Assembly: GCA_963921795.1 (NCBI GenBank) | Contig: OY997652.1 | Span: 55,611,838-55,675,837, forward strand | Source of the DNA: Nannobrachium achirus | Lineage: Eukaryota; Chordata; Actinopteri; Myctophiformes; Myctophidae | Length of the DNA: 64,000 nt | Reading direction: 5' to 3' | Shown here: piece after piece, positions 1-31,046 of the stretch | Numbering within the stretch: the stretch's first letter is position 1 | How the letters are laid out: every line of letters begins with the position of its first letter | Program-made: the position numbers and the translations under genes | Notes under the pieces: generated by a model | The model's database searches: none | Told to the model about the DNA's origin: nothing | Seen by the model: only the letters and a program-made list of their open reading frames with translations

Positions 1-459
1 TCCATAGAAGAGCTTCAATTGGTTGTTGAGTAGGCTACATCTAATGAGGTCCAGTTACTTAATTATCAATTTTACTTTATCTGTTTATTTAGATTGGGCA
101 GATGTAATGTATGGTAGGCTACTATGGGCTTAATGTAAGTAATGAAAATACACCGTGTGTGCATGTACACCAGGGGTCTTCAACAGGGGGTCCAGGACCC
201 CTATCGGGTCCTCAGAATTACTACAGGGAAAGGCACCAAATCTATGTGTGATAGGACCATTCTTTTGAGGAGAACTTTAGCCAAAAATAGAAGATCTACA
301 AGCTTGTAGATCTGCTATATTTGGCAATAGGTTTGGTGTTGAAGTGAAAAAGCCGGAAACCAAGTACAGAGTGAAAGGTAAAATGTACTAAGTAAAAGAT
401 GGAACAAGGATGTAAGGAGTTCAATGTAAAAAAAAGAAAACGCCCCCAAAAGCTCTAGT
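1..459. other. No gene; short palindrome
   Basis: No coding region is supported. Around position 171 the text resembles the start of an hAT-type repeat (CAGGGGTCTTCAACAGGGGG). Positions 281-325 form a short palindrome centred on AGATCTACAAGCTTGTAGATCT-like sequence, a motif that recurs at several other places in the window. Confidence 0.5.
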
Positions 460-489
460 GGGCACTAGACAGGCGTTGGCACTTTGAAC

Positions 490-2044
490 ACACGCAAAAA
501 AGTGACATTTTCAAACTCTAGTTGGCGCTGGAGAGCAGACGACTCTTTGCGTCGGCACTTTGGAGACACGCACGCGTTCGGGGAGACCTCCTCTATCACT
601 CCACACTCTCCGCTAAGCAGCAGAGGTGTAAAATCAATTTCTGTTGGCTGTCCAGTGCAGCCACTCGCTCAAAATAGTGACATTTTCAGGCATTTTCAAA
701 CTCTAGTTGGCGCTGGAGAGCAGACGGCTCTTTGCGTCGGCACTTTGGAGACACGCACGCGTTCGGGGAGACCTCCTCTATCACTCCACACTCTCCGCTA
801 AGCAGGAGAGGTGTAAAATCAATTTCTGTTGGCTTTCCAGTGCAGCCACTCGCTCAAAATAGTGACATTTTCAGGCATTTTCAAACTCTAGTTGGCGCTG
901 GAGAGCAGACGGCTCTTTGCGTCGGCACTTTGGAGACACGCACGCGTTCGGGGAGACCTCCTCTATCACTCCACACTCTCCGCTAAGCAGGAGAGGTGTA
1001 AAATCAATTTCTGTTGGCTGTCCAGTGCAGCCACTCGCTCAAAATAGTGACATTTTCAGACATTTTCAAACTCTAGTTGGCGCTGGAGAGCAGACGGCTC
1101 TTTGCGTCGGCACTTTGGAGACACGCACGCGTTCGGGGAGACCTCCTCTATCACTCCACACTCTCCGCTAAGCAGGAGAGGTGTAAAATCAATTTCTGTT
1201 GGCTGTCCAGTGCAGCCACTCACTCAAAATAGTGACATTTTCAGGCATTTTCAAACTCTAGTTGGCGCTGGAGAGCAGACGGCTCTTTGCGTCGGCACTT
1301 TGGAGACACGCACGCGTTCGGGGAGACCTCCTCTATCACTCCACACTCTCCGCTAAGCAGGAGAGGTGTAAAATCAATTTCTGTTGGCTGTCCAGTGCAG
1401 CCACTCGCTCAAAATTTTGACATTTTCAGGCATTTTCAAACTCTAGTTGGCGCTGGAGAGCAGACGGCTCTTTGCGTCGGCACTTTGGAGACACGCACAC
1501 GTTCGGGGAGACCTCCTCTATCACTCCACACTCTCCGCTAAGCAGGAGAGGTGTAAAATCAATTTCTGTTGGCTGTCCAGTGCAGCCACTCGCTCAAAAT
1601 AGTGACATTTTCAGACATTTTCAAACTCTAGTTGGCGCTGGAGAGCAGACGGCTCTTTGCGTCGGCACTTTGGAGACACGCACGCGTTCGGGGAGACCTC
1701 CTCTATCACTCCACACTCTCCGCTAAGCAGGAGAGGTGTAAAATCAATTTCTGTTGGCTGTCCAGTGCAGCCACTCACTCAAAATAGTGACATTTTCAGG
1801 CATTTTCAAACTCTAGTTGGCGCTGGAGAGCAGACGGCTCTTTGCGTCGGCACTTTGGAGACACGCACGCGTTCGGGGAGACCTCCTCTATCACTCCACA
1901 CTCTCCGCTAAGCAGGAGAGGTGTAAAATCAATTTCTGTTGGCTGTCCAGTGCAGCCACTCGCTCAAAATTTTGACATTTTCAGGCATTTTCAAACTCTA
2001 GTTGGCGCTGGAGAGCAGACGGCTCTTTGCGTCGGCACTTTGGA
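490..2044 (+). repeat. 185-bp tandem array, left arm (about 8.4 units)
   Basis: The unit contains the landmarks CTTTGCGTCGGCACTTTGG, CACGCACGCGTTCGG and TTGGCGCTGGAGAGCAGAC and repeats every 185 bp with very few differences. Variant positions (CACTCGCTC/CACTCACTC, AAAATAGTG/AAAATTTTG, CAGGCATTT/CAGACATTT) define unit types in the order a-b-c-d-e-c-d-e, so c-d-e is duplicated as a 555-bp higher-order repeat. Each unit holds an open frame of 84 codons with no ATG start. Because 185 is not a multiple of three, this frame does not run on between units, and I do not regard it as a gene. Confidence 0.95.
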
Positions 2045-3144
2045 CACATATTGGGATTTGCATTGCATAAAATCACATCCACATCTGTTGTCGTGAGAGC
2101 CGAATCAAAGCCAATATTTCCCACATTGTCCTCTATTGTGATGCATGCATTAAGTGGTGCGTCATTACATTTCACATAGAAATATATGCATCCATTTTCA
2201 TCTGTCACTTTCTTGGCACTTTCTAGTGATGTGCTTTCTATTTTGCTATCATCTGCTATAATTACTTCATTGCCATGAAGCAAATGTGCCCAGAGGTGTC
2301 CAGATCGGGCCGTATTCCCCGTATGACAAATGATTGAGCTTAACTTATACTTCTTTTTACTGCCGTCATGAATGGGAACTTCGATTATATCAGATGGGAC
2401 TATAGGGATGTGGAGTACAAACCCTTGATTATTAACACGGGACACAGAAATAGTAATGACATCAGGTGCTTCAATCCAACATGTTTGTCTCATCATTTCT
2501 GCACCACATCTACATCTCTTTACACCTTCCATGATTGATTGTTCGAAAAGAGAAGTGAGGGATTCATCTTTCTGTGGCAGCGGTAATGAAAATGTAGTCC
2601 TTTCAGAAGTGCGTGTGCTTTCATCTTTTGAGCCACATTTTTTACAGATGTCTGTATGTTCTGCATTAACAGTTACTTTGACAGAAATCCAACCAGGTTA
2701 ATAGTTTTTGTATCAAATCTAGTGGATCATTGTGCCTTAACAAGGACAATGCTGAGATGCTCTTGACTAATTCTTCAGTGACACCATGGATTGTTGTAGC
2801 ATCAAATGTGTGCCCTGGATCTTGTAAAAACTCCTGGATGAGAATTGCTAAATTGATGACATCTGAACCATAGAAGCAGCTGTCAAGTGTTTCAATTTAT
2901 CTTGCACTACTTGCAGATGTAGGATGGATTGTAATGTAGCATTGAGCCAGCAGTTATTCTCATTATTTTCAAACCTGCATATTCTATTGCATATTTCATT
3001 GTTTGTGTCTCTGTTTTGTGCCTTTGATTTATCTGGCACACTTTCTGGGACATCATTTTGTGAGAACATCTTTGAACGTGAAAATGGCCATACTTGAAAA
3101 GACTTTCTAAGTTGTTTCGGCACTTGTGCTGGTTTATCCCACCC
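2045..3144 (-). pseudogene. Ubiquitin-specific protease (C19) fragment
   Basis: Read on the minus strand, this contains the landmarks of a USP-family deubiquitinase in the right order. The Cys box (NNCWLNATLQSIL, about 2930-2975, catalytic Cys present) comes first. A finger region with CKKC (near 2640-2650) and CRC (near 2515) pairs follows. The His box (YKLSSIICHTG...SGHLWAHLL, about 2285-2350, catalytic His present; GHL instead of the usual GHY) is last, with a following Asp. USPs cleave ubiquitin from proteins. The frame changes near 2885 and again near 2680, so it is either a pseudogene or has unrecognised introns. The domain is much shorter than the usual 300+ residues between boxes. The frame runs directly into the 185-bp repeats on both sides, so no host-gene flank remains. 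Resemblance to the USP37/26/29 group is only my impression. Confidence 0.75.
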
Positions 3145-4147
3145 CTTAACGGAGAGTGTGGAGTGATAGAGGAGGTCTCCCCGAACGCGTGCGTGTCTCC
3201 AAAGTGCCGACGCAAAGAGCCGTCTGCTCTCCAGCGCCAACTAGAGTTTGAAAATGTCTGAAAATGACACTATTTTGAGCGAGTGGCTGCACTGGACAGC
3301 CAACAGAAATTGATTTTACACCTCTCCTGCTTAGCGGAGAGTGTGGAGTGATAGAGGAGGTCTCCCCGAACGCGTGCGTGTCTCCAAAGTGCCGACGCAA
3401 AGAGCCGTCTGCTCTCCAGCGCCAACTAGAGTTTGAAAATGTCTGAAAATGACACTATTTTGAGCGAGTGGCTGCACTGGACAGCCAACAGAAATTGTTT
3501 TTACACCTCTCCTGCTTAGCGGAGAGTGTGGAGTGATAGAGGAGGTCTCCCCGAACGCGTGCGTGTCTCCAAAGTGCCGACGCAAAGAGCCGTCTGCTCT
3601 CCAGCGCCAACTAGAGTTTGAAAATGCCTGAAAATGTCACTATTTTGAGCGAGTGGCTGCACTGGAAAGCCAACAGAAATTGATTTTACACCTCTCCTGC
3701 TTAGTGGAGAGTGTGGAGTGATAGAGGAGGTCTCCCCGAACGCGTGCGTGTCTCCAAAGTGCCGACGCAAAGAGCCGTCTGCTCTCCAGCGCCAACTAGA
3801 GTTTGAAAATGTCTGAAAATGACACTATTTTGAGCGAGTGGCTGCACTGGACAGCCAACAGAAATTGATTTTACACCTCTCCTGCTTAGCGGAGAGTGTG
3901 GAGTGATAGAGGAGGTCTCCCCGAACGCGTGCGTGTCTCCAAAGTGCCGACGCAAAGAGCCGTCTGCTCTCCAGCGCCAACTAGAGTTTGAAAATGCCTG
4001 AAAATGTCACTATTTTGAGCGAGTGGCTGCACTGGAAAGCCAACAGAAATTGATTTTACACCTCTCCTGCTTAGCGGAGAGTGTGGAGTGATAGAGGAGG
4101 TCTCCCCGAACGCGTGTGTGTCTCCAAAGTGCCGACGCAAAGAGCCG
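3145..4147 (-). repeat. 185-bp tandem array, right inverted arm (about 5.4 units)
   Basis: Same unit as the left array but reverse complemented. Variants alternate along the array: AAAATGTCTG with GGACAGCC versus AAAATGCCTG with GGAAAGCC, in the order A-A-B-A-B. The local period is therefore 370 bp, unlike the 555-bp period of the left arm. The GGAAAGCC type also occurs once on the left (unit near 832), so the arms share ancestry but have been re-amplified separately. Confidence 0.95.
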
Positions 4148-4164
4148 CCTCCTGTCCAGTGCCC

Positions 4165-5916
4165 AATTTGTAAAGGCTATGCACTCCAGTGAACTGCATT
4201 TATCCATTTATAATGTTTTTCTAATGTTAATAAAACTTTTTTTTTACCCAGAAACACAATTAGCATTTAGTGTGTTCGTTTTAATGCTTAATCTATATTT
4301 TGAATGTGCATATCATGGGACAATTACTCGTTTTTCAACATTTTTCAATTGCCTCAGGGGTACTCTTATTCTGAAGAGATCGGCACCGGAAGTCTTATTG
4401 CAGCTAACGCTAATGCAGCTGACTTCACATAGGCACTGGAGTGGACTAGTGGAGGAGAATACGTTGAATCTTGTCTTCATTTTACAATGTGAAGTTAATT
4501 TGAGCAACACAGCACTGTTTGTGTTTAGTGGACACACATACTGTACACATGCTGTTACCCAAACCACGCATGCACACCCACATTAATAAATAATTATGAG
4601 AATAAAAGTAATAATTATGAGAATAAAAGTAGGCTATGTAATCATTATTAAAATTATAATCATTATAGGCTTCACTAAATGGTCAGTCCATAAATGTAGG
4701 CCTATTTGCAAATGGAAAGGGGGGAAAACAGCTCGTTTACAATTCACTTTTGCTACCTCTGAAAGAAGTAAATATCATGGAATTAAATTTATATTGGAGG
4801 TGAGTGAGAAAAGGAACAAATATTGATGGTTAAACTTAAAACTTAAAAGTAAGACTGAACAATGACATCACACCGTTTAATCCTACTATTAAACGGAGGG
4901 AAGTAGGGGTGCTGGGGGTGCGGCCGCACCCCCTCCCCCACGTCCCACCGCACCCCCTAAAGGGGGGTTGGGGGGAAAATATTGCCGATCGGCAAGTAGA
5001 GGCTCTGACATCAGTGGCGTGAAGTAGGAGCTATTGGCTACTTCTATTTCCAGTACAATTTCAAAATAAACATGTGTTGAATGATCGATTGTATAGACAA
5101 AAAAAAAAAAGAAAGGCTCTTGTTTTGAAATGTGCTTCTGGGCACTGTTCAGAGAGGAAATGGCTTTCAAAGGACTTCCCTTTTAACTTGTCTGTCTGAA
5201 CGTCTGTCTCTCCGTGCGTAACTGATGCGTCATGGACTCGGTGGATTATAACAATACGGCCATAAAGGAATATACAGAACACCAAGACAACACAACCTAG
5301 GCTTTGAAGGCATTAAACATCGCCCTCTGCTAGCCCTGGCGTCCTCACTGGTGAGTCGTGGGCTCGTGGCTATAGACTTGTAATGATGAATGAATGCTAT
5401 GTTATGCTGCTGTGCTGCCTGGCTAGGCTAACGTTTGGGCTAGCTAGTGGCTAATGGCTATGGTGTACCAGAACCATCGCCAATGAAGCCTGGGTTTCCG
5501 AGGCTAGCTGTTTCCTAACACTGGGGTCTGGACCGATGTGGCGGACACGTTGTATGGGTCACAACGCACTGAACACAGTGCGAAGCAACTCGTTGTGAGC
5601 TTGTACATCTGCTATTTTCACTACTTGTTTGGTACAAGGTAGTAATGTCTCTTGGTTCACGGGCTAAAAAGTTTGGGAACCATCATACTTGCTGTTGTAG
5701 ACAGGTTCACGGGCTAAAATGTTTGCTTGCTGTTGTAGACAGTGGTGTAAAGTAACTAAGTAGATTAACTGAAAAGCTCTGGGAACTGAATGATTTTATG
5801 AAACTGGCACTTGTTGTCTGACTGTTGGTACCAAGAAATCCAGACTATATACCGAAAAATACCTGATTTAATATGATTTAATATAGGAAAATACTCGTTT
5901 TAGCCGACTTTATACC
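4165..5916. other. No gene recognised
   Basis: About 1.7 kb without supportable coding sequence. It includes a GC-rich stretch at 4910-4975, a poly-A run at 5100-5112 and a half copy of the recurrent CTTGTA(C/G)ATCTGCTATTTTCA motif near 5595-5625. Near 5741-5770 the text GTGGTGTAAAGTAACTAAGTA resembles the end of the hAT-type family seen complete at 15034-16737. Confidence 0.45.
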
Positions 5917-6494: not shown

Positions 6495-6903
6495 GGATCT
6501 CGAGACCAGTTTAACTCCAGACAGCATCAGTCGTCGTCCTGTTAACACGCTAAGGAGACGGTGCCACCTCTCAAAAATATGGAGTCATGGACTTCCTGAT
6601 GGATAGATTACCCTTTGGAGCAAGAAGGGAAGACCTTTTATTTTGTATTCGTGCATGTTTGGAACAGTAAGAGAATCAAACGAGCTCACCGACCGTCCAT
6701 GGGCTATGTTAATAAATAAATAAATAAATAAAACACGCACAAATGCAAAATATAAGTGCTCCATTCTTGCTCCAAGTGTAATCTATCCATCAGGAAGCTC
6801 TCCGGAAAGTAAGTACACATTTTTGGGCGGTGGCACCGTCTCCTTAGCGTGTTACCAGGACGTCGACTGACGCTGTCTCGAGTCAAACTGGTCTCGAGAT
6901 AAA
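6495..6903. mobile_element. Foldback MITE
   Basis: Left arm 6495-6625 and right arm 6763-6903 are inverted copies. Both contain AACACGCTAAGGAGACGGTG (or its complement), CTTCCTGATGGATAGATTA and the ATCTCGAGACCAGTTT edge. The spacer holds an (AAAT)n run near 6715-6732. No coding capacity; superfamily not determined. Confidence 0.75.
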
Positions 6904-7279: not shown

Positions 7280-7394
7280 TTCCAGACCTTAGTTTGGGCT
7301 AAAAATGGTTGCGCCAATAGGCCTGTCACAATTATTACATAATCCTCTAGCAGATCTACAAGATACTTTTTGACAGAGCACTTTCTGAATTAGC

Positions 7395-8165
7395 CCTAGA
7401 ATGTCTGTGATTATTCATATAGACTTTGTCAATATTTCATGTATCACAGCCATAGAACACCCCCATTGCGCGGCGGTTAGCAGCTAATCTGCGCGGCCCT
7501 AAAGTGCTGCGCATTACTTGTGTACTCACCCAATAATTTATTCCTCATCCTGGGAGAAAGACATTGTCCTATAGTGTCATATCCATTTGAAAGTTTTGGC
7601 TAAAAACGTGTACTTGTGTAAAATATCTCCACTTATCACGAGCCAACACGGACGACTTACACGACCGGGCGAGGGGCCCGGAATGACTGCTGGACTGAAT
7701 ATCAAAACTTCCTTTTGGAAGCACAAACCGTGCGGGGCACACAATCACGCAGGTGGTGTGATTAGTCACCCCACGTCAATCACAAGCACCTGACTGTCAA
7801 TTGTGTGCCCCATACGTTTTGTGCTTCCAAAAGGAAGTTTTGATATGTTCAGTTCAGCAGTCATTCCGGGCCCCTCGCCCGGTCGTGTAAGTCTGTGTTG
7901 GCTCGTGATAAGTGGTGATATTTTACAAAGTACACGTTTTCAGCCAGAACTTTCAAATGGATATGACACTACAGGACAATATCGTTCTCCCAGGCTGAGG
8001 AATACATTATTGGGTGAGTACACAAGTAACACGCAGCACTTTAGGGCCGCGCAGATTAGCTGCTAACCGCCGCGCAATGGGGGCGTTCTATGGCTCTATT
8101 TGAGGGATTACACAAAGTGTCAACCGACCGAAAATCAGAGACATTCTAGGGCTATTTCTGAATAT
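7395..8165. mobile_element. Long foldback element (about 355-bp arms)
   Basis: Arms at about 7395-7752 and 7801-8165 are inverted copies around a 50-bp centre. Shared landmarks are CATTGCGCGGCGGTTAGCAG, ACACGACCGGGCGAGGGGCC and CTTCCTTTTGGAAGCACAAA. The arms differ by scattered substitutions and a small indel near the outer edge. Apparent ORFs of 66-87 codons are read-through of the arms and are not gene-like. Confidence 0.85.
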
Positions 8166-8661: not shown

Positions 8662-11600
8662 CTAAACGTCCAGATGCGCCATAATAGGACCCCAGATGAA
8701 CTCGAATGCAGTATGACTGTCCTGTTTAAAGCATCGAAGCCTCTCCAAATGAATAATTGACACAAATTCTGTAAGCCATCTGTTGAAACAAGGTATAGTA
8801 GAGGATTTCCATTCAGTTAATATAATTCTTTTGGCTACTAGTGTACCAAGCATAAGTGTCTGTTGGACAGAGTACGGCAGAGAAAGAGAAGCTTCGGAGC
8901 AACCAAACAGGACAGTCAGTGCATCGGGCTCAATGCGAATACGATATACACTACTGTACCAAGCAAAAATGCTTTGCCAGAATGGAACAATCCTTGGGCA
9001 CGACCAGAACGTGTGTCCCAGCGTGCCCTTGGATGTGGTGCATCTGTCACAGATATCTGAAACGTTTGGATACATTTTATTCATTTTTACTTTGGAGTAA
9101 TGTAATCTGTGCATAACTTTAAACTGAACAAGCTGCAGTCTGGCATTGACTGAGCCTGAATGGATTCTCTTCAACCCCTCGCTCCAGATCTCGTCGGACA
9201 GTTCCAACCCAATATCAGCCTCCCAAGATGCCCTAATGTGGTTTGTTGACGGAATAGATGATTTGGAAAACAACGAGACAAATTTAGAGATGAGATGTTT
9301 AGAGTATGGATGCTGTCTCATCAAAGCATAAAAGCAGTGTTCTTCAGGCAAATTTTGATAGTTGTTAAAATTGTTTAGAACAAAATGTCTAACTTGAAAG
9401 TAATGAAAAAGGTGGGATTGTGGAAGTGAAAATGCTTCTTTCAGCTCTGAGAATGCAGCAAATTGGTTGTTTATGTATAAATCGGCAAAGGATATCAAAC
9501 CCTTCTCCTTCCACTCTGTAAAAGCTGGATCTGACTGAGAAGGAATAAAGTTGTGATTAAAACAAATTGGAGAGTATATTGACAGATCCGGAACCGAAAG
9601 TGCTCTTTTTACCTGTTTTAATATTTTTATTGAATTTTCCAAAACCCAATTGTCACCCAATAGGTGGGTTGGGTAGTCTTTAAATGAGAACAATAGAGCT
9701 GAAAGAGAGCTGTCCCTTACTGCCTGAGATTCGAACTGGAGCCATTTGGGGGCATCAGATGAAGTTTGAGGAGACTGGTTTTGCCAGTATATTAATGCTC
9801 TCAAATTAGTGGCCCAGTAGTAATGTTGAAATACAGGGAGGGAGAACCCCCCTAGTATCTTAGATTTTTGTAAATGACACTTTGAGATGCGATTGGTTTT
9901 ATACCCCCAAATAAAAGGCATTATTATTGAGTCGATTTGTTTAAAAAATGACAATGAAAGTTTAATTGGGATGTTTTGAAATATGTACATGAACCTGGGG
10001 AGAGAGACCATTTTAATGGCATTCACGCGCCCTATCATAGATAGCGGCAACGTTCTCCAATACTCAATGTCTGTCTTAAGTTTAGCTATTAGGGGAGTAA
10101 AATTATATTTAAACAGAGACATTGGGTTCAACGATATAGATAAGCCCAGGTATGTAAATTTATCAGTGGCTATTTTAAAGGGGAGGGATTCAAGATACGC
10201 TCGATCTAGATTGTTACTAAGGGGGATAAAGGCGCTCTTTTGCCAATTAATCGAGTACCCAGACAGCTTGCCAAAACGATTGATTAATGAGAGAAGCGGA
10301 GGGATGGATGAAGATGGATCCATCATAAAAATTAATAAATCGTCCGCGTAAAGCGATAGTTTACATTCCACATCCCCTACCTTAATTCCTTTAATATCAA
10401 TATGCTTTCTAATAGCAATAGCGAGCGGTTCAAGCATTAAATTGAACAATAAAGAGCTTGCGCAACAGCCCTGTCTCGTCCCGCGTTGTAGCTTGAAGGA
10501 CGCTGATTTATTACTATTAGTCAGAATGGAGGATGTGGGGGCAGCATAAAGCATTTTAATCAGCTTCAAAAAATAATCACCAAATCCGTAATGCCTTAAT
10601 GTGGCATGCATATATCTCCAGTCGATCTGATCGAAGGCGCGCTCTGCGTCGAGCGATATGACTACGGGTTTATCATCTGATTCATATTTAGCATACATTA
10701 TATTAAATAATCTGCGAGTATTAAAAAAAGAAAATCTCCCGGCCAAAAACCCATTCTGATCCGGGTGTAAAAGAGAATGCATGTGTCTAGCAAGCCTGGC
10801 AGATATAATCTTGGCTACCACTTTTTGATCAAAGTTTAAAAGACTGAGAGGTCTATATGCTGATGGCTCCGATTCATCCTTCCCCTTTTTAGGTAGCAAG
10901 CAAATATTGGCCTCGTAAAGAGACTGTGGAAAGATGTTACTATCAATAGAGTGTTTAACCATTCTGAGTAACAAAGGAGAAACAAGATCACTGTATGCCT
11001 TGAAAAATTCTGCTCCAAATCCGTCAGGCCCCGCGGCCTTGCCACTCGCGAGAGATTTAATAGCGTCCTTAACTTCATTGATAGTAATTTCAGAATCAAG
11101 GTCGGCCTTGGCGATCACGTTTATTTTAGGTAAATCAACAGATGTTAAAAATGATTCGATCTCGTCGTCAGTTGCAGTATTCTTAGCTTTATACAGATTT
11201 TCGAAGTGATCTCTAAAGTGGTTATTAATGGCTTGAGGATCAGTTAATAGTTCACCAGTCGAGGACTTAAGTTTAAGGATAGACCTGCTTGCCTGCTCAC
11301 CACGCAACTGTCTGGCCAACAGTTTACCAGGCTTGTCACCCAGTTCAAATTGTTTTTGTCTCAGTTTAAGTATCTGTTTGTTAACCTGGTCACTCAGAAT
11401 GGTATTATATTCATATTTCAATTTCATGACGGAACACAGATCTTTCACTAACAACGACGTTCTATAGAGCCTCTCAGCATCCAAAAGTTGCACCTCAATA
11501 TCAGCGAGTCGTTTACGCCGCGCTCTCTTTTTAGAAGCTTCGTAGGCAAATATTTTTCCTCTCGCCACTACCTTAAATGACTCCCATAATATAGAATCAG

Positions 11601-12465
11601 AAACGTCACCTTTATCATTAAATAACAAGAAATCATTAATGGATGTTTTCATGTATTCATTGAAATTACTATCCTGCAGTAGCAGAGAGTTAAAACGCCA
11701 AGGGAAAAAAGCTTTTGGAAGGGACCATTTAAAAGACATAGCGAGAGGACTGTGGTCGGCGATTACGATTCCCTGATATTTTGTATGCAACACATTTGAT
11801 ATCAACTTTGAATCAATAATAAAAAAATCAATACGTGTATACGATTTGTGAGCATGAGAAAAAAAGGAATATTCTTTGTCAGTAGGATGCTGTAACCTCC
11901 AAATATCAACTAAATTAAATGATTTCATTAGGTTAAGCATAGTACACGCCGCCTTGCTAGGAGGAGAAGGACGTGTTGACAAGCGGTCGAGGTAACCATC
12001 CAAAAATAAATTGTAGTCACCACCGATTATCAAATTAGTTGAATTCGGATCAGGCAATAAATTAAATAACCTCCGAAAAAACTCTGGGTCGTCAGTATTA
12101 GGACCGTAGATATTAACACAAGTAATGGGGATATTATTGATTTTACCAGAGATGATCAAATATCTACCATTAGTATCACTAATAAGAGAAGTTAATTGAA
12201 ACGGTACACTTTTTCTAAATAAAATAGCAACTCCTCTAGCTTTGGATGAAAACGTGGATTGATACACCTCGGAAAACCAACTCGCTTTAAGTCTACTTTG
12301 ATCAGATGGCTTGATGTGTGTCTCTTGTAAGAATATAATATCGGCAGATAGTGATTTTAAATAAGAGAAAACCTTTCCTCTCTTGACTTGACTTCCCAAT
12401 CCATTTACATTCCAAGTAACAAAAGTTAAATTTCCAATATCGGTGCTGTTATTGCTCGTGCTCAT
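8662..12465 (-). CDS. L1-type ORF2: endonuclease-reverse transcriptase
   Basis: 1,267 residues from an ATG at 12465. The enzyme nicks genomic DNA and reverse-transcribes the element RNA at the nick. Residues 15-245 are an APE-type endonuclease: FVTWNVNGLG, LQETH at 46-50, GGDYN at 148-152 and the catalytic ADHSPLAM at 236-243. The reverse transcriptase spans about 475-750: GKAAGPDGFGAEFF, a SLDAERAFD block with Asp605, RGTRQGC and the YADD active site at 706-709. A C-terminal zinc-binding motif C-x2-C-x8-H-x4-C lies at 1139-1156. No stop or frameshift interrupts it. The domain order is that of the L1/Tx1 group; the exact clade needs a tree. Open frames on the other strand here are shadows. 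Confidence 0.97.
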   Translation of the reverse strand: MSTSNNSTDIGNLTFVTWNVNGLGSQVKRGKVFSYLKSLSADIIFLQETHIKPSDQSRLKASWFSEVYQSTFSSKARGVAILFRKSVPFQLTSLISDTNGRYLIISGKINNIPITCVNIYGPNTDDPEFFRRLFNLLPDPNSTNLIIGGDYNLFLDGYLDRLSTRPSPPSKAACTMLNLMKSFNLVDIWRLQHPTDKEYSFFSHAHKSYTRIDFFIIDSKLISNVLHTKYQGIVIADHSPLAMSFKWSLPKAFFPWRFNSLLLQDSNFNEYMKTSINDFLLFNDKGDVSDSILWESFKVVARGKIFAYEASKKRARRKRLADIEVQLLDAERLYRTSLLVKDLCSVMKLKYEYNTILSDQVNKQILKLRQKQFELGDKPGKLLARQLRGEQASRSILKLKSSTGELLTDPQAINNHFRDHFENLYKAKNTATDDEIESFLTSVDLPKINVIAKADLDSEITINEVKDAIKSLASGKAAGPDGFGAEFFKAYSDLVSPLLLRMVKHSIDSNIFPQSLYEANICLLPKKGKDESEPSAYRPLSLLNFDQKVVAKIISARLARHMHSLLHPDQNGFLAGRFSFFNTRRLFNIMYAKYESDDKPVVISLDAERAFDQIDWRYMHATLRHYGFGDYFLKLIKMLYAAPTSSILTNSNKSASFKLQRGTRQGCCASSLLFNLMLEPLAIAIRKHIDIKGIKVGDVECKLSLYADDLLIFMMDPSSSIPPLLSLINRFGKLSGYSINWQKSAFIPLSNNLDRAYLESLPFKIATDKFTYLGLSISLNPMSLFKYNFTPLIAKLKTDIEYWRTLPLSMIGRVNAIKMVSLPRFMYIFQNIPIKLSLSFFKQIDSIIMPFIWGYKTNRISKCHLQKSKILGGFSLPVFQHYYWATNLRALIYWQNQSPQTSSDAPKWLQFESQAVRDSSLSALLFSFKDYPTHLLGDNWVLENSIKILKQVKRALSVPDLSIYSPICFNHNFIPSQSDPAFTEWKEKGLISFADLYINNQFAAFSELKEAFSLPQSHLFHYFQVRHFVLNNFNNYQNLPEEHCFYALMRQHPYSKHLISKFVSLFSKSSIPSTNHIRASWEADIGLELSDEIWSEGLKRIHSGSVNARLQLVQFKVMHRLHYSKVKMNKMYPNVSDICDRCTTSKGTLGHTFWSCPRIVPFWQSIFAWYSSVYRIRIEPDALTVLFGCSEASLSLPYSVQQTLMLGTLVAKRIILTEWKSSTIPCFNRWLTEFVSIIHLERLRCFKQDSHTAFEFIWGPIMAHLDV

Positions 12466-13087
12466 AGCAATCAGTTAACAGAAATGAGACATGTATGATA
12501 GGCATAGGCTTACTCGTTTTGAATAACATATAACACATAATGCAGTCTGGTACATTTAACATAAACCCCCCACCGCCCCCCACCCCTCCCACCAGCCAAA
12601 CGATTTGGCAATACCCCTTCCCACATAATCTAAATGAGACTACTAGGCCGTCGTATGGGTCAGTTAAGACCATTAAACGTCAAATTTAGTAGGCCCACTG
12701 CAGTGAGAAAATAAATAAAATATCAACGAAATCTAATTTACAAATTAATCACCCTAACTGTGCAATAATGAAATCGAACAAATATAATGATACTAAATAA
12801 TAATAATAATAACAACCACTAACCCCAAACAAATAGTGTACTACAAATGTTTTATTTATTTAAATAACACCCTCTTTATGTGATAACATCGTTAAAAACA
12901 AATATGGAGAAAAAAGAAATAGAAAAGAAAATAACGAAAACAAGAGACCAATTAATGAAAACAAAAAGGGAAAAGGAAAACAGCTACTTAGGGAAAATAA
13001 AACAAACAAAAACAGATAAGGAAAAAAAAGGCTAGTGCATTATATTACGTCTTGCGGTTCTGTGGCTTTTACCCTTGCTTGAAGAAA

Positions 13088-13999
13088 TCAGTCCGAGTCA
13101 GAAGGCAGATTGTCGGCAAAGGTTTTAGCCTCCTCAGGATCGGTGAAGATGGTGGTCTTTCCTTTATGCTCGACATGTAGTTTAGCTGGAAAACGGAGAG
13201 ATGTTTTCACACTAGCTTCGCGGAAAATCTTGATGGCCGAGCTGAAAGCTTGGCGTTGTTTCAGTACCTCTGGTGAATAGTCCGGGAAGATGTGAATTCT
13301 GGAACCGTTGTATTCCAGCTGGCCTTTCTCCCTGCTCAAACGTAGAATCAGCTCTCTGTCTTGATACCGGTGCATCTTGGCGATGAAGACCCGGGGACGT
13401 TTTCCTCCAGCTCCGCCGCCTCCGCCGCCGCCGCCGCCTCCGCCTCCCGCCGATGCGGGTCCAATGCGATGGGCTCTGTCCACCTCCACCGGCCTGGCAA
13501 AAGCATCCGGGCCAAAAAGTGAAGCGATCAGCTCAGTTATGAAGGTTGTAGGATTACCCTTCTCCAAGCCCTCGCCGATTCCAATGAACCGCAGGTTCGA
13601 GCGCCTGGAGCGCCCGATCAGGTCGATCACCTTCAGGCCAAGCTGCTCGTTAGCCGCTTGCAGTTCTTGGCAGGTTTTTTCCAGCGCGTCCAGTCGGGTG
13701 TCGTGAGATGACACGGCGGTGGCAATACCATTCACTTTCTTTGCTACTGCAGTTTGTTCCTTCTTCACAAGCTTGAGAGAGTTTTCAAGGGAGTCCAAAC
13801 GAGTGGTTATGGAACTCACAGACTGTTCGATTAACTCCCTCATTTCTTTACCCTGCCTCTCGATCGCGGCCATTATAGCTGTTGTAGATTCGTCCAAAGG
13901 CATGTTGAGGAAGCTGGCCACGCCGAGTAGGGCGTCGACTGATTGTTTGTTCAGTTCCTTTGTTCCTTTGTTTAATCTTGTGTTAGGCTTAGGCCCCAT
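13088..13999 (-). CDS. L1-type ORF1: RNA-binding chaperone protein
   Basis: 303 residues. I start at the ATG at 13999 (MGPKPNTRLNKG), since the frame further upstream has no ATG. In L1 elements ORF1p trimerises through a coiled coil and coats element RNA. Here a heptad-rich segment spans about residues 45-130. An RRM-like segment beginning SNLRFIGIGEG and a C-terminal domain ending near the acidic PSDSD follow. A run of about 12 glycines, encoded by a GGC/GGA triplet repeat (minus strand of 13417-13448), interrupts the RRM just after RAHRIGPASA. It looks like a microsatellite expansion inside the coding sequence. The partner ORF2 follows after 622 bp. Confidence 0.9.
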   Translation of the reverse strand: MGPKPNTRLNKGTKELNKQSVDALLGVASFLNMPLDESTTAIMAAIERQGKEMRELIEQSVSSITTRLDSLENSLKLVKKEQTAVAKKVNGIATAVSSHDTRLDALEKTCQELQAANEQLGLKVIDLIGRSRRSNLRFIGIGEGLEKGNPTTFITELIASLFGPDAFARPVEVDRAHRIGPASAGGGGGGGGGGGGAGGKRPRVFIAKMHRYQDRELILRLSREKGQLEYNGSRIHIFPDYSPEVLKQRQAFSSAIKIFREASVKTSLRFPAKLHVEHKGKTTIFTDPEEAKTFADNLPSDSD

Positions 14000-14158
14000 C
14001 AAAAGCAAGACAAATATCAGATGTTGTAAGGTAGCCAGACACTGATGAACCGCAAGTGTCGGATGATTAAAAAATATTTAAAACAAATTCCTCATGAGCG
14101 GAGCTACTGCACACACAGCTACTCCATACGTCACCGTAGGTCTGCCTTTTACATTCTT

Positions 14159-14235: not shown

Positions 14236-15089
14236 TAGCCGCAAATTGCAACAGTAGATTTTATTTTAATCGGACGAATCTAGGGTTGCAATACCTCCCA
14301 TAGGCAGCCAATGCATCAAAACAGTTTTTTTTGCTATCTGATTGTATTAAACGACGTCAAACTCACCAATATTGTGGCTCTATGGAAAGCTTGGAGTATC
14401 CTCTTTCTATCTGCAAAGTGTTTGTTTCAGAAACATCCACCGTAAACATGTTATGAGCCTGTTTCTATCAAGAAATTGGCTTCAGGTGATATTTTTTTCT
14501 AAGTGCTGGAGTGTGGAAGCACCTGTGGGAAGTCACTCAGCGATCCTGTGTACCACCTGGTTCTAAATGTCACATAATGCAGGAGGCAGCGGGACGCTGC
14601 GTAATAAAAGACGAGCGCTTCCTAAGTTCAACACTTAGAAAATAAACCATGTCTGCTCGGATTTCTTGACAGAAAGTAGCTCATAACATGTCTACGGTGG
14701 GGTTTTATGAAAGAAACTCTTTTCAGATAGAAAGAGGATTTCCATACAACCCCAATATTGGTGAGTTTGACGTTGTGTAATACATTCAGATAGTAAAAAA
14801 CTGTTTTGATGCATTGTCTGCCTATGGGAGGTATTGCAACCCTAGATTCATCCTAGTGATGTTACCGATCAATCGGCAATGGATCGGATTGGGCCGATCA
14901 AAGCGTGATCGGCGATAATCGTGGTTTAGATCAAAAGGTAAATTCACCGATCCGATCAATTACTTATTAAACATGCGCAAGGCAAGGGTTTGTTATGGTC
15001 CCGCTGCTCCTCGCTCCACTTCACTCAGTGTGGCAGTGGTGGAAAAATTACTCACATGTCTTACTTAAGTAAAAGTATCAATACTGTAA

Positions 15090-19611: not shown

Positions 19612-22600
19612 GCCTATAAGGCGAGCACACTTTAGATGTTGTCATTATTTATCTATCAGTCATATCATACTGTAGACGGGAACTTCGGTTCCTTTCTACT
19701 CCTACATACTTAGTGAGAAAATGAAAATAAAAACATCAATGTGTTCAGTTTACAGTGGCGAAGTGTGCTATTATTGTGGGCTCGCCTATAAGGCGAGCAC
19801 ACTTTAGATATTGTCATTATTTCTATACTAGGCAGGCAGTCAGTGCAAGTATCAAAAAACTTCGGTTCCTTTCTACTCCTACATACTTAGTGAGAAAATG
19901 AAAATAAAAACATCAATGTGTTCAGTTTACAGTGGCGAAGTGTGCTATTACTTTTTACAGCAATCGGCCAAATGGTGGCGCTGTAGGAAGCCTTCGAAAG
20001 TGCGAACTTTGAACAGGTATAGCTCATGCTGTGTTTGAGGTACAGGCATGAAACCTGTATACACGTATGCGTCTCCTCATGCCGAACAACTTTTAGCCTC
20101 TGACTTTTGACCTCTGACCTTTAGATCTCCCACAATTCGGAATTATATGAAAAACAGTAAAAATCTATCTCCTCCTGGGTTTTTTTCGATACGCGCACAA
20201 AACTTTTTTCACATGAACTTTGGACCAATACGGTCAAACTAATCTCGGCGGATTTCTTTTAAAGTGAAATATATTTTTTTAATAATTCAATAAATATTGC
20301 AGTTTTATGCAAATTATTCTTCGGCCTCTAAATCATACATGCAAAGTTACACGTTCATGGCATTTGGCAAAGATGTAGAGGGTTAGTCAAGGTATCACTG
20401 AAACCAATTTTATTCCAATCGGCCAAAGGGGGGCGCTATACGAAGCGTCTGAAAATTCAAACTTCAAACGGGCATAAGTCATGACTCGTTTCGTTTGAAG
20501 ACATGCAACTTGTTACACGCGTGCTTTGACTCAAGCGGAAGACATCTGTGTCGTTGTTAAGTAAGCTCCGCCCTTCGATTTTCCGCCACTTTGAGCAGTT
20601 TGTAAAACGCGTAAACCCGCTTTTATTCTGGAATTTTCGCGTCACGTGCACAAAACTTTTTTTACGTGAACTTTGGACCGATATCTAAAGATCTGTCAGA
20701 TCGGATTTCTTTAACATTGAAACATGCTTTTTTAAATAATTCAAACAATATTGCATTTTTATGCAAATTATTCTTCTGCCTCTAAAACATACAAGCAAAG
20801 TCACATTTTCATGACAAAATAGTGTAGAGGGTTAGTTCAAATATCACTGAAACCAATCTTACCCCAAATGGCCAAAGGGGGGCGCTATATAATTTTGAGC
20901 AGTTTGTAAAACGCTTAAACCCGTTTTTATTCTAGGATTTTTTTTGCAATTTGCATGAAACATTCTACACGCAATCTAAGGACCTTTATCTAACATGCCT
21001 ATGAAGTGCACACAAAAAAATTATAAAATAATAATAATAAATATAGCTGCAAGCAGCGATAAAGTGTCCAAAGCCAAAAACACCTCAAATCATGAACACA
21101 GCCTGGGATGTGCGTGAAATCTTGCAAGCACATTCCCAATAGGTCAAGGAACAGATACCAACCTTCTCACATTGGCCTGTTATAGCGCCACCAGCGGGTC
21201 AACTTTTGCACAACACATTTTTGGAACAAAATGGACCAATCTTTGACGTCAGTAACGTCAAAGAGAGCACTGCCTGCGATCTTGACATTTTGTGCTTTTA
21301 TAGCCATTGTTTTCCGGCTTGAAGCGAGCCCACAATTGTTTCGAAGGAACAATATTTTTCTAGTTTTCTATAGCAATCGGCCAAATGGTGGCGCTGTAGG
21401 AAGCCTTCGAAAGTGCGAACTTTGAACAGGTATAGCTCATGCTGTGTTTGAGTTACAGTCATGAAACCTGTATACACGTATGCGTCTCCTCATGCCGAAC
21501 AACTTTTACCCTCTAACTTTTGACCTCTGACCTTTAGGTCTCCCACAATTCGGAATTATATGAAAAACAGTAAAAATCTATCTCCTCCTGGGTTTTTTTC
21601 GATACGCGCACAAAACTTTTTTCACATAAACTTTGGACCAATACGGTCAAACTAATCTCGGCGGATTTCTTTTAAAGTGAAATATAATTTTTTAATAATT
21701 CTATCAATATTGCGGTTTTATGCAAATTATTCTTCTGCCTCTAAATCATACATGCAAAGTTACACGTTCATGGCATTTGGCAAAGATGTGGAGGGTTAGT
21801 CAAAGTATCACTGAAACCAATTTTATTCCAATCGGCCAAAGGGGGGCGCTATACGAAGCGTTTGAAAATTCAAACTTCAAACGGGCATAAGTCATGACTC
21901 GTTTCGTTTGAAGACATGCAACTTGTTACACGCGTGCTTTGACTCAAGCGGAAGACATCTGTGTCGTTGTTAAGTAAGCTCCGCCCTTTGATTTTCCGCC
22001 ATTTTGAGCAGTTTGTAAAACGCGTAAACCCGCTTTTATTCTGGAATTTTCGCTCCACGTGCACAAAACTTTTTTTACGTGAACTTTGGACCGATATCTA
22101 AAGATCTGTCAGATCGGATTTCTTTAAAATTGAAACATGCTTTTTAAAATAAATTCAATGAATATTGCAGTTTTATGCAAATTATTCTTCTGCCTCTAAA
22201 TCATACATGCAAAGTAACATGTTCATGGCATTTGGCAAAGATGTAGAGTGTTAGTCCAAATATCACTAAAACCAATCTTACCCCAATTGGCCAAAGGGGG
22301 GCGCTATATCATTTTGAGCAGTTTGTGAAACACTTAAACCCGTTAGGATTTTTTTTTGCAATTTGCATGAAACATTCTACACACAATCTAAGGACCTTTA
22401 TCTAATATGCCTATGAAGTGCACACACACAAAAAAAATAATAATAATGAATATAGCTGCAAGCAGCGATAAAGTGGCCAAAGCCAAAAACACCTCAAATC
22501 ATGAACACAGCCTGCAATGTGCGTGAAATCTTGCAAGCACATTCCCAATAGGTCAAGGAACAGATACCACCCTTCTTACATTGGCCTGTTATAGCGCCAC

Positions 22601-22772
22601 CAGCGGGTCAACTTTTGCACAACACATTTTTGGAACAAAATGGACCAATCTTTGACGTCAGTAACGTCAAAGAGAGCACTGCCTGCGATCTTGACATTTT
22701 GTACTTTTATAGCCATTGTTTTCTGGCTTGAAGCGAGCCCACAATTGTTTCGAAGGAACAATATTTTTCTAG
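19612..22772 (+). mobile_element. Second Helitron-like family (TTGTGGGCTCGCC ends)
   Basis: The 5' end A/TTGTGGGCTCGCC has a CTCGCCTATAAGGCGAG hairpin and is tandemly doubled (19612 and 19774). The 3' end has a TTGTTTCGAAGGAACAA hairpin, then TATTTTTCTAG before T. The 5' sequence TTGTGGGCTCGC recurs inverted just before the 3' hairpin (GCGAGCCCACAA). The insertion splits the LINE tail that resumes at 22773. The interior is dominated by a 1.41-kb tandem duplication, listed separately. Confidence 0.6.
19955..22772 (+). repeat. 1.41-kb tandem duplication (two units)
   Basis: Units 19955-21363 and 21364-22772 are close copies: CAATCGGCCAAATGGTGGCG opens both and AATATTTTTCTAG closes both. Within each, the sub-block GGCCAAAGGGGGGCGCTATA-type is itself repeated. 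A diverged relative lies at 53930-54870. No gene. Confidence 0.9.
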
Positions 22773-22843
22773 TTTTATTTGACACTTGCTTTGGCAATAT
22801 AAACATGTCTTCTCATGCCAATAAAGCTCCTTTGAATTGAATT
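22773..22843 (+). mobile_element. LINE 3' tail (TTGAATTGAATTG end)
   Basis: TTTGACACTTGCTTTGGCAA...CCAATAAAGCTCCTTTGAATTGAATTG is the standard 3' tail of a common fish L2/CR1-like LINE. Its upstream part lies before the 19612 insertion. Confidence 0.65.
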
Positions 22844-24149: not shown

Positions 24150-24600
24150 GGAATGTTGTCTATATATGGAGATAGTCCAGTCCATCATGTCATATGGGAC
24201 TACCGTCATAGAAAGTAGCCATTGTTAGGCCGGAGTCATTGGCTGTCTAAACATGGAGATGTGGATAACACTATATATGGAGATAGTCTAGTCCAATATG
24301 TCATATGGGACTACCGTCATAGAGAGTAGCCATTGTTAATCCGGAGTCAATGGCTGACTGTCTGTACAGGAAGTGATGTCACATGACATACTTTTTATGC
24401 CCATATATGAGTCCTAACATGGAGATGTGGATAACATTATATATGGAGATAGTCTAGTCCAATATGTCATATGGAACTACCGTCATAGACACAGCCATTG
24501 ACTCCGGCCTAACAATGGCTACTGTCTATGACGGTAGTCCCATTATGACATGATGGACTGGACTATCTCCATATATAGTGTTCTCCACATTTCCATGTTT
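24150..24600. repeat. Direct and inverted repeats with TATATGGAGATAGTC
   Basis: Three direct copies of a block containing ATATATGGAGATAGTC(C/T)AG and GGGACTACCGTCATAGA, plus an inverted copy at about 24495-24590. It lies inside H2. The same kind of TCCATATATGG sequence fills the H3-H5 elements. Confidence 0.8.
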
Positions 24601-25425
24601 AGGCCCCATCGCTCACACCCTCGATGGGGTTGGCGATAGGGCCTTTCTGTGTGGAGTTTGCATGTTTCCCCGTGTCTCCTAGGGTTGATACCCTCACAAA
24701 AACATGAACAAACTCCCCCCAGAATGATAACAACTAGAATCGTCAGAGAAACACTGTGGTTGGCCAGATAGTCAAGAATTGGCGCGACCTCGCCCTTTAG
24801 GGCGAGGTCGCATGTCACCCTGAGGTGTCTTACTAGTAATATTTTAACTGGGGACCCCCCCCCCCCCCCCACCCTGACAAGCACTTGGAGTTGGAGTTTC
24901 ACAATATCTGCCTCTAATATTTGACAATTTGTCCAATGTTTAATTTGTCATTTTAGAGGTATTAAACAGTCCTCAAATTGTCACTTTAGAAATGTCCAGA
25001 TACCCTCTATACACTTAAACTTTATGTTGGTTTGTTTACTGTTGAGTGATAAAACAATGTTGCACATTAAGTTAATCACGGTGATTAAGTTAATCACCGT
25101 GCAGAGGATGTTAAAGAGGCAGGGGCTGAAATTTCTGTGGAAATATTGAAAATGGCAGACCTCCAAGCTCACAACACGTACTTGTATTATATATCGACAA
25201 TTTTAAAACACAGGCCTAAGCCTGAAGTGGTTTTGTAACCAATCAAAATCTACAAAGTAACTATAACCAAAGTTTTCAAACACTTTAATATTTGCCTCCA
25301 AGATGTAGTGGAGTAGAAGTAAAAGTATTTAGAATTGGAAATACTCCAGTAAAGTACACATTCTGGGTACGCATTATTACATTAACCATTATTACTTGAA
25401 ACATTATTTTATGCTTTAGCTAATG

Positions 25426-27147: not shown

Positions 27148-28145
27148 GACCGATCGCTATGCCCCTCCTAAAGCCGTGCTTGCCCAATGCCACGTTTAGC
27201 GACAGGTTACTAAGGCGGGTGCCTTGGCAAGCTGCCATGGCGGCGTGCAGCAATAGCACCCAGCTGCAGACTAACCTGCCACAAACGTCCAGGAAGAAAA
27301 CAATAGCATATACTAAAGTCAGATTAACATACAGTACACAAGTGTTACCAGTTATATTTTCTCATGAAGTGCTCCTAAATTATTCCCGTGGGTTTGTGTA
27401 GGTCAGTGCAATCCGTTCTGTTTTTGTTTCAGTGTTTGTGACACGGAAGCGAGTGGGTGGGACGTTCGCGAACGAATCAAGTCTTTTGAACGGCTCTTTG
27501 AAATGAACGATATGATTCGGTTCACAGTAGGGAGCCGTTCCTTTCTATGAACAGTGGTGGGAAAAGTACTACATTTCTTTACTTAGGTAAACATATCAAT
27601 ACTGCAATCAAGTTTGGAATGTTATTAATGTACTAGAGTAAAAGTAAAATAGTATTGGTATCAAAATGTACTTAAAGTACCAATATTAGAACGTACTCAT
27701 TATGCAGAATGTCCTGTTTCACAGGTTCTCTAATGAGTAAAATGTAGAAAAATCATTTGCAAATAGCTGATCTACAAGCTCACAATGCATCGCAACGTGA
27801 CACATTGTGAGCTTGTAGATCACCTATTTTCAAATGCCAGAAATGTATCCAATGGCCAAAATGTACAGGCCTATTTGGGTGGAAGTGATTTACAATCATA
27901 ATCAAAATCTACAAAGTAACCAGTAACTAAAATGAGCCAGTCTTTTGAACGGCTCTTTGAAAGGAACGGATCTCAGAGATCCGGTTCACTTCAAAGAACC
28001 ATAAATCCCATCTCTATCTAGCAGCCAGACTAGCGGTACACCGATGCGCGCCGCCATGGCAGCTTGCCAAGTCTGCTGCGTTAGTAACCTGTTGCTAACT
28101 TGGCATTGGACGAGGACGGCTTTAGGAGGGGCATAGCGATCGGCT
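27148..28145. mobile_element. 1-kb TIR element at the end of GIMAP A
   Basis: Inverted ends of more than 100 bp (27148-27260 and 28020-28145) share CCGATCGCTATGCCCCTCCT and AAGCTGCCATGGCGGCG. A direct AATT flanks both sides. The corresponding point in duplicon B (about 46548) is uninterrupted. It contains a nested AAGTACTT-rich hAT-like piece, the TTTTGAACGGCTCTTTGAAA inverted pair and a copy of the recurrent hairpin (27757-27834). Superfamily not determined. Confidence 0.75.
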
Positions 28146-29065
28146 AATTGCTGTTGCCGGTGTGAGATTACAACACTGCAAGTGCCCTTTATACATGACA
28201 AATCCAACTATGAGAGAAGCAACTCCCAATAGGATTAATGGAACTCCTACATAAAGGCCTATCCCTTCTACCATTACCGTAATGATAATTCCGGCGATAA
28301 ACAGCAGTAACCCCAGCACAAACGCAAATTTCCCACCACCCAACCTCATTCTCTTCTCATCTCGCCTCATTCTCTCCTCATCTAGCCACCTTTGCCTTTC
28401 CTCCGCTTTCTCTCTCTCCTCCTCGCGTACCCTCTTCTCCTCCTCCTCCCGCAGCTTCTGCTGAGCCTCCTTGAACATCTCGTTGGTGTAGTGCTCCCCG
28501 TGGTTGTCGTCGACCATTTTCCTGATCATCTCGATGAGGTCTTTGACCTGTTGGCGGTCGTCTCTGTCGCTGTTGTTGAAGGCGTGGTAACGGCCTCCAA
28601 ACTTGTTGACGATCCTCTGTATTTCCTTGCACTCCCTAATAGCCTCTTTAGGACGGTGTTGCTCTTTGCACGTGAACAGCACAATGCTGTACAGGGAGGC
28701 GTCCTCTCCAAAGTTCTCCTCGATCCATTTAACGGCATTCTGCTCCTCTTTGGTGAACCTCACCCCCAGCCTTATCACCAGCAGGAAGGCGTGAGGCCCT
28801 GGGACGGACTTCTTAACACACTCCCCTATGATTGACTTCAGGTCTTCATTGCTTATTCCTGTGTCAAACAGGCCTGGTGAATCAATGACATGCACCGTTG
28901 TCCCGTCCACTTCCCCGCGGTATTTAGTACACGTTTTGGTCACAGATATTGTATTACCGCCCACTTTACAGTCATTTGTTCCAAGGATTGTGTTCACTGA
29001 CGAACTCTTCCCTGAGCCAGTCTTGCCCACCAGGACTATCCTCAGCTCTCCTAACACATCTGAAC
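28122..29065 (-). CDS. GIMAP/AIG1-family GTPase, copy A (AIG1-domain exon)
   Basis: GIMAP proteins are membrane-anchored GTPases, in vertebrates mostly of immune cells. The exon carries G1 GKTGSGKSS (29027-29001), G3 DSPGLFDT (28883-28860) and the AIG1 core. A Glu/Arg-rich coiled coil (about 28472-28338) and two C-terminal hydrophobic segments (28328-28266, 28256-28191) follow, as in tail-anchored GIMAPs. I start the exon at a splice acceptor, CTCTGCTTTTGCAG; the open frame upstream has no ATG and is intronic. The 5' exon(s) are not identified. From 28145 the last seven codons and the stop lie in an inserted transposon, replacing the C-terminus seen in copy B. No frameshifts; intact but possibly altered at the tail. 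Confidence 0.9.
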
Positions 29066-30255
29066 CTGCAAAAGCAGAGATAAAATGAATGTAGCTGGTA
29101 GTGATAGGGGAGAGCGGGGTAAACTGAGACACTGGGTAAACCGAGACGGTAACACTTTATAATAACTATTCGTTATAAGTAGTTAATAAACTATTAGTTA
29201 ATGAGTTATTAATGCCTTGTTAAGCATTTGTTATTAGTTTTCTTAAGGATTATTAAGAAGGCCCTATATCCAGTTAATGGATACTTTTTATAAAACATTT
29301 ATTAATGTCTTTTTCAATATTTGTTAACAGTTAAGGAGTTATAAGTTATGCCTTATAAATATGTAATGGATTATGAACAAGCTATTAGTAAATCACTTAC
29401 TAATAGCTAGTTAAGTATTTGTTAATAGTTTATATGTAACTATTCCTAATTTACTCATAAGGAGTAGTCGCAAATTTACTCATGAGGAGTAGTCGCAACT
29501 TTAGAATAACGTCCCAATAGCACATATAAAAATATTTGATTAACATCTACTAATATAAGAGACACTTTACAACAGTGGTACAGAAAATGTGATTTTATTA
29601 TTTCCAAAATACACAATGAATGAATGGATGGTGTCTAAAATAACATTAATAACCAGTAAGACTCCCTAATCGGGAGATAAGCGACCGTTGGTCGCTTATC
29701 TCACCAGTAAGACTCCCTAATCGGGATATCACAACCTCCACCTCTCACGTCATACGGGTAGCCATAGTTACACCTGGAATGTTGAATCTCCATATATGGA
29801 GATAACCTACGCATCACACAAAGTCTGACCTCACCAGCCCATACTTGGGCATGGACGACTTATATCTCCATATACGGAGATGGCCATATATGGAGATACG
29901 ATGACATCACAGAGTCCACAGCTGATGATGTGGCGTGATGTCATACAATACACAAACAAGCCCTATATAAAGGGGCAATTCTCACCAGGGAAGAGAGCAT
30001 TGCCTGGAATGTTGAATCTCCATATATGGAGATAACCTACGCATCACACAAAGTCTGACCTCACCAGCCCATACTTGGGCATGGACGACTTATATCTCCA
30101 TATACGGAGATGGCCATATATGGAGATACGATGACATCACAGAGTCCACGGCTGATGATGTGGCGTGATGTCATACAATAAACAAACAAGCCCTATATAC
30201 TGATGCGATACGATGACATCACAGAGTCCACAGCTGATGATGTGGCGTGATGTCA

Positions 30256-31046
30256 TTGCGACCGTAAGGTCGCAGTTTAGTATGAAAACCTCCACCGGCC
30301 GTCCGTCGGTCACACGTGCGGTCGACCGCACGTCACACGTGCGGTCGACGTGTGATGAGGTCACGATGAGTCATCTATGCCCAAATATAGATTTCTAGGT
30401 CAGATGGCCCATAGAGTTTGTGATGTCAAACCTAGCAACCCAATATAAACAAACCTGATGTCAGACCTGAAGTATCCTTTTATACCCATATATGGAGATA
30501 CAGAGATCTCCATATATGGGCATATTAGAAAGCCCATATATGGGCATATACGGATGACATCAGGGATATCCATATATGGGCATAAAAGGGACAAGGGCTT
30601 ACAGTTAAGAGATCTCCATATATGGGCATATCAGAAAGCCCATATATGTTCATATACTGATGACATCAGGAATATCCATATATGGGCATAAAAGGGACAA
30701 GGACTTACAGTTAAGAGATCTCCATATATGGGCATAAAGGGACAAGGACTGTTACAGTAGATATAGAGATGTCCATATATGGGCATAAATGAACAAGGAC
30801 TGACAAACACTGAGATCTCCATATAACCTATGGGAATATAAGGGACGAGGACTGTCAGCTTGTAGACCTATTTTCTAAATATTGTTGTACATTAAAAACT
30901 TGAAATGGGTCGTTCTGCATAGTACTTGGGATTTGTTGATGTAAATGTTCACATAGAGTGTAATAATTGGTAAAACAAACTTTTGGCCTATTTGTGGAGA
31001 TAAGCGACCAACGGTCGCTTATCTCCCGATTAGGGAGTCTTACTGG
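30256..31046 (+). mobile_element. Helitron-like element H4
   Basis: It starts TTGCGACCGTAAGGTCGC after A30255 and ends CTTACTGG before T31047, with the hairpin GGAGATAAGCGACC/inverse upstream. The uninterrupted host sequence GATGTCATACAATAAAC is present at 30167-30183. Excising H4 rebuilds it exactly, with no target duplication. Confidence 0.85.
30506..30720 (+). repeat. 106-bp tandem repeat (two units)
   Basis: Each unit runs from GATCTCCATATATGGGCATA to GGACAAGG(G/A)CTTACAGTTAAGA. Further partial units follow to 30850. It is part of H4. Confidence 0.8.

Follow-up and report, generated by a model that had tools for sequence, protein, structure and literature searches.

A probable foldback-type transposon copy with tandem-repeat arms around an intronless USP pseudogene

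The window analysed here, a 64-kb stretch of DNA from the fish Nannobrachium achirus to which all self-comparisons refer, contains at 459-4165 what is probably a damaged, non-autonomous copy of a DNA transposon of the foldback type, as judged from its sequence anatomy. Its arms are arrays of a single 185-bp unit in opposite orientation, and they enclose a USP (peptidase C19) gene on the minus strand (Table 1). We prefer this foldback-type reading over that of an ordinary satellite because both outer edges stop in phase and share four bases found only at the ends, because the flanks contain no satellite above shuffles, and because another element of the window (36944-40941), unrelated to this one, is built to an equal plan.

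Table 1 Features of the putative foldback-type element and its core, in window positions.
Feature	Positions	Strand	Basis
Left outer terminus, TGGGCACTAGACAGG	459..473	+	14/15 match with right end, equal unit phase, four end-specific bases
Leftover of truncated outermost left unit	474..505	+	Unit matches confined to positions 44-67 and 165-183
Left arm, 8.3 copies of 185-bp unit	506..2048	+	TRF; per-unit variants
Core, intronless USP (peptidase C19) gene	2049..3144	-	Pfam UCH match of read-through, 2e-16
ORF piece 3, CKKC, CRC, His and ADD boxes	1981..2697	-	ORF list, landmarks, UCH match; ends within left array
ORF piece 2, middle of domain, RHNDP box at 2723-2737	2666..2896	-	ORF list, landmarks
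ORF piece 1, start and Cys box	2848..3240	-	ORF list, landmarks; open from within right array
Right arm, 5.5 copies of 185-bp unit, inverted relative to left	3145..4163	-	TRF; inverted repeats
Right outer terminus, TGGGCACTGGACAGG on minus strand	4151..4165	-	Match to left end

The earlier note had described two inverted arrays of a single 185-bp unit that abut a USP-like region on both sides, and our analysis agrees. TRF assigns a period of 185 to both arrays, with 98% matches in the left and 97% in the right. In inverted orientation, 709-1727 and 3145-4163 are 98% complementary over 1019 nt, and the remaining arm registers are 96-99% complementary where the array in both arms spans at least 114 nt. 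Chance assembly of the inverted arrays is ruled out by this length and identity. As in foldback elements, the arms are built of tandem repeats and are both long and highly alike. The core borders both arrays directly and occurs once in the window. The inner ends of the arrays are out of phase, with the break at position 63 of the unit on the left and at position 112 on the right. Apart from two short stretches in the truncated outermost unit on the left, BLAST (E ≤1) finds no match to the unit elsewhere in the window. The observed/expected CpG ratio is 0.80 for the unit, 0.34 for the core and 0.60 for the window.

Both outer edges read TGGGCACTRGACAGG (14/15): TGGGCACTAGACAGG, starting at 459, and TGGGCACTGGACAGG, starting at 4165 on the other strand, are identical at 14 of 15 bases. 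The two edges also lie at an equal unit phase, about position 18, which bears out the short matching termini that had been noticed outside the arrays. Four bases are common to both edges, and all 14 internal copies of the edge site lack them. The element therefore has defined outer termini common to both ends, as a foldback element should. The left end is damaged, since the outermost left unit is truncated and only 46 bp of it remain (460 to 505). In the flanks outside the ends, all six alignments to the unit fell within 300 dinucleotide shuffles each; the alignment of 400-505, the stretch that holds the left end, exceeded all 300. Immediately outside the left end, the heptamer CTCTAGT, together with a gapped CAAA, resembles an internal unit to a degree reached by 35 of 300 shuffles. 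Because CTCTAGT also matches the internal unit, the true left end could lie slightly further out.

When the ends were aligned for target-site duplications, neither the in-register scan nor a wider scan yielded a convincing one. In register with the ends, the longest among 31 registers tried was the 4-bp AAAG at 453/4171, a type of match of which about 0.12 would be expected by chance over the 31 registers (about one in eight scans). The unrestricted scan, run without a chance control, returned 13 weak candidates. Foremost among them were CAATG at 427/4484, whose inverted ends match at only 11/14 bases, and an 8-bp repeat at 430/4484 that contains one mismatch and whose inverted ends match at only 9/14. 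No likeness of the termini to the ends of zebrafish Pdre2 was seen by eye. Of the satellite-armed mobile element that the earlier note had proposed, the foldback-like anatomy is supported by the shared end phase and bases, the flanks and the neighbour of the same plan; its mobility is putative, neither scan having yielded a convincing target-site duplication.

The minus strand of the core carries three overlapping ORF pieces in different frames. Against the UCH profile PF00443, ORF piece 3 gives E=8.8e-10 (39 bits) and ORF piece 1 gives E=0.002 (18.2 bits, under the curated cut-off of 23.9), and ORF piece 2 alone has no match in Pfam. Joined into one read-through, with an X at both frame changes, the three pieces match UCH at E=2e-16 and 60.8 bits (cut-off 23.9) over profile positions 2-254 of 254. 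This search confirms the USP-like character claimed for the region, and it covers the profile at full length: the core holds a catalytic USP domain from end to end, free of introns. The frame changes lie at about 2890 and 2690, and the ORF pieces used for the read-through contain no further stops. The core copy is a pseudogene, its reading frame being no longer intact.

The Cys box (NNCWLNA, 2938-2958), a CKKC pair (2632-2652), a CRC pair (2503-2520), the His box (SGHLWAH, 2284-2304) and the ADD box (ADDS, 2242-2256) follow one another in the usual USP order. We take NNCWLNA, SGHLWAH and ADDS to be the catalytic Cys, His and Asp/Asn boxes of a USP, the His box reading GHL in place of the usual GHY. 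A similar box pattern is known from the USP37 group, which makes that group a candidate affiliation. By this assignment the putative catalytic Cys, His and Asp/Asn of a USP are all present, and the Cys and His boxes have been kept through two breaks of the frame, just as the first look at the DNA had suggested. As a rule of thumb, two small indels and zero nonsense changes in about 1 kb indicate a recent gene loss. Because the read-through has two frame changes and no other stop, and because the catalytic boxes are kept, we infer that the USP frame was probably lost not long ago, a judgement from lesions and not from dating.

The read-through was compared with 177,635 distinct PDB sequences, and its closest match is USP28 at E=0.033. 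ORF piece 3 is closest to USP36 (E=0.23), and ORF piece 1 to an unrelated riboflavin kinase (E=0.17), followed by USP14 (E=0.72). Because no PDB USP is close, the core is a divergent USP, with the proviso that PDB lacks some human and fish USPs and a nearer host gene may exist. The absence of introns and the distance from PDB USPs speak against a host gene of the ordinary multi-exon kind having been captured recently, and do not thereby imply that the element owns the gene. Pfam scans of the ORF pieces and the read-through found no transposase domain in the core. An AlphaFold2 model of ORF piece 3 alone had a mean pLDDT of 39.4, too poor for a fold search. We also considered whether the core consists of degenerate array units and rejected this, as all four alignments fell within shuffles.

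The ORF piece 3 protein returned one stretch by pattern in viral contigs and 136 in prokaryotic genome contigs, none of them confirmed in either collection, and one 29-base unit pattern had 0 matches in each. Comparison of 2000-3200 with plasmids at the DNA level gave no match. As all these sets cover viruses and prokaryotes, the misses carry little weight for a eukaryotic element. The tRNA and Rfam scans of the window gave 0 matches.

The unit variants retain traces of how the arms grew. Left units 3, 4 and 5 recur as units 6, 7 and 8 with one added difference, which points to recent duplication of a three-unit block; in the right arm, the variants form a two-unit pattern. From outside to inside, the markers 145T and then 185A occur in equal order in both arms. 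Units differ by 1.5% within the left arm, 1.8% within the right and 1.9% between arms, an excess reached by 126 of 2000 label shuffles in a test that masked 34 bases at the start of the outermost right unit and in which neither the partial inner-end units nor the truncated left unit took part. Any difference between the arms is small, in line with unequal exchange within arms and conversion between them.

The foldback-like element at 36944-40941 is the second in the window: a core of about 2.3 kb lies between inverted arrays of a 381-bp unit, with copies of the terminus where units start. The left array holds 2.7 copies by TRF and the right array fewer than two by eye; the ends match over more than 30 bases, and the inverted arms are 96% alike over 366 nt. 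Its 24-base terminal GGGGTAGAACAAAACGCGACATAG, with up to 8 mismatches allowed, is found at five sites: the two ends, the second left unit, where the copy at 37332 is exact, and the inner positions 37713 and 40541, with 6 mismatches. Arms that hold a repeated end are thus not unique to 459-4165. TA adjoins the ends of this second element on both sides and may be a duplication or chance. Its core has ORF pieces on both strands, which presumably resemble a common transposon-linked protein; the two that were scanned gave no Pfam match above cut-off.

A third inverted structure lies at 29141-33994, with long nested arms, a 230-bp repeat, smaller inverted repeats inside and a 5-bp candidate duplication, GTAAA. 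Kinship among the three inverted-array elements was rejected, since six of six unit alignments fell within base shuffles. The window further contains six snap-back elements that are inverted about their own centre at 76-87% (6497-6900, 7383-8162, 14272-14853, 24247-24602, 34609-35245 and 52596-53090). A LINE-like element at 8662-14077 has a 1270-aa ORF that encodes a reverse transcriptase and an endonuclease domain, preceded by a 329-aa open frame that lacks a confident Pfam match. AIG1 (GIMAP-like) GTPase ORFs at 28122-29156 and 46519-47610 are open over the whole domain and, being about 91% alike in DNA, represent a duplication; along with the general look of the sequence, they suggest a teleost host. 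Direct tandem duplications are present at 54908-58192 (about 1.6 kb) and 19952-22776 (about 1.4 kb), both about 95% alike.

The same locus might be an ordinary dispersed satellite, an array that underwent an inversion and received a USP pseudogene or retrocopy, with no transposon involved. Such an origin would agree with the lack of a convincing target-site duplication in either scan, with array homogeneity of satellite grade and with the degenerate left edge, as the edges of satellite arrays often are degenerate. However, it would leave unexplained why both edges stop in one unit phase and share four bases seen at none of the 14 internal sites, why the flanks hold no more units above shuffles, and why a further, unrelated element in the window also has inverted arms with end-like units; we regard it as improbable.

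If the element is instead a foldback copy, two accounts of it differ only in the origin of the USP. One is a transposon family, autonomous now or once, that owned a USP, the copy here having lost its transposase and then the USP frame. A full, intronless domain with Cys, His and Asp boxes, only two lesions and no close PDB USP would suit such a family, and the available parts of the literature describe deubiquitinase or Ulp1 transposons in zebrafish, Hydra and plants and cite a protist transposase-C19 protein. Yet one copy is seen, transposase is absent, and PDB is incomplete for USPs, so that the comparison with it covers only part of the host USPs; we consider this origin rather unlikely. 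The other account, to which we give tentative and limited credence, is that the retrocopied transcript of a host USP was captured in one copy or lineage. It would likewise yield an intronless domain, and array ends that break off out of phase, at unit positions 63 and 112, would be natural. By eye, the joints briefly resemble the replaced array (CTCCG.TAAG, and GGACACA beside GGAGACAC), as filler DNA does in break repair, although alignments of the core ends to the unit remain within shuffles. A poly(A) tract is absent from the 40 core bases at each joint, and with PDB USPs so dissimilar (best E=0.033) a capture would have to be old, which sits poorly with only two lesions.

For the foldback-type element we propose the following model. 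A transposon end would have been duplicated in tandem, turning each arm into an array whose 185-bp units all contain a sequence close to the terminus. The arrays would have grown longer by unequal exchange, and exchange from one inverted arm to the other would have kept them alike. By analogy with Galileo, a transposase supplied in trans may bind the ends, with the arrays acting as extra binding sites. The full-length intronless USP gene between the arms would be cargo or the remnant of an element-borne gene. If that gene was ever active, it is tempting to speculate that it spared proteins needed for transposition from ubiquitin-dependent degradation, as proposed for the deubiquitinases of Helentron elements.

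If other copies hold an intact USP, they would add a further class of ubiquitin protease in fish transposons, beside OTU and VTD, and would support the idea that ubiquitin removal aids DNA transposition. A USP-bearing transposon family is, in our estimation, unlikely. We rate as likewise unlikely a vertebrate foldback family that regularly carries its own C19 USP, has arms formed by a satellite of its own end and has intact copies elsewhere in the genome. Regardless of the USP, the element seems to exemplify a satellite that arose from a transposon's own end, whose growth stages can be read in the unit variants.

Ubiquitin or SUMO proteases in transposons are already known, the accessible parts of the sources describing them for Helentron, Ginger1, Kaonashi and a transposase-C19 protein. 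To our knowledge, Helentron elements do not have inverted arms. Those with VTD or OTU, with which Helinoto is grouped among the nearest known systems, are fish transposons that, like the core here, carry a ubiquitin-cleaving protease, and zebrafish Helentron VTDs are active in vitro; in the sections available, they differ in being rolling-circle elements and in having VTD or OTU folds, not USP (PMC9741609). Ginger1 with OTU or Ulp1 is, like the probable transposon here, a cut-and-paste DNA transposon with a ubiquitin/SUMO protease, and the same paper cites a Trichomonas vaginalis protein that joins transposase_11 to a peptidase C19, the family of our core; both differ in that the protease domain sits on the transposase, and the inverted repeats of Ginger1 measure 44-270 bp, with no mention of tandem arms in the parts of the paper available (PMC2836005). 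Kaonashi MULEs with peptidase C48 represent a ubiquitin-like protease gene amplified in DNA transposons, but they are found in plants and carry C48, not C19 (Hoen et al. 2006, as excerpted in PMC6117577). Among the matches listed, we recognised no foldback transposon, nor any other with inverted repeats, that carries a USP or deubiquitinase, which is weak evidence of absence, as the literature search left most subscription journals uncovered.

The core contains no transposase domain of the P superfamily (Galileo) or of MULEs (FB-NOF) that would assign the element to either. Tetris, a foldback transposon of Drosophila virilis, has tandem repeats of about 220 bp in its arms, as the element here has, and 37 bp of its repeat are about 80% alike to its terminal domain, comparable to the near-terminus in the 185-bp unit; its repeats also grew into satellite arrays, and no autonomous copy was found, according to the portions of the paper at hand (PMC4079207). 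By the same description, on which the likeness rests, Tetris differs in its AT-rich repeats, in its identifiable target-site duplications and in the absence of a conserved ORF (PMC4079207). Galileo, a foldback-like member of the P superfamily, has long inverted arms like those here, with tandem repeats of about 210 bp in one subfamily, and its arms are 98-100% identical within one copy, for which exchange and conversion were proposed; in contrast to our element it has a P-type transposase, and the accessible text does not mention a USP (PMC3573991). Together, the arms resemble those of Tetris and Galileo, and the anatomy fits a non-autonomous foldback element with a USP pseudogene.
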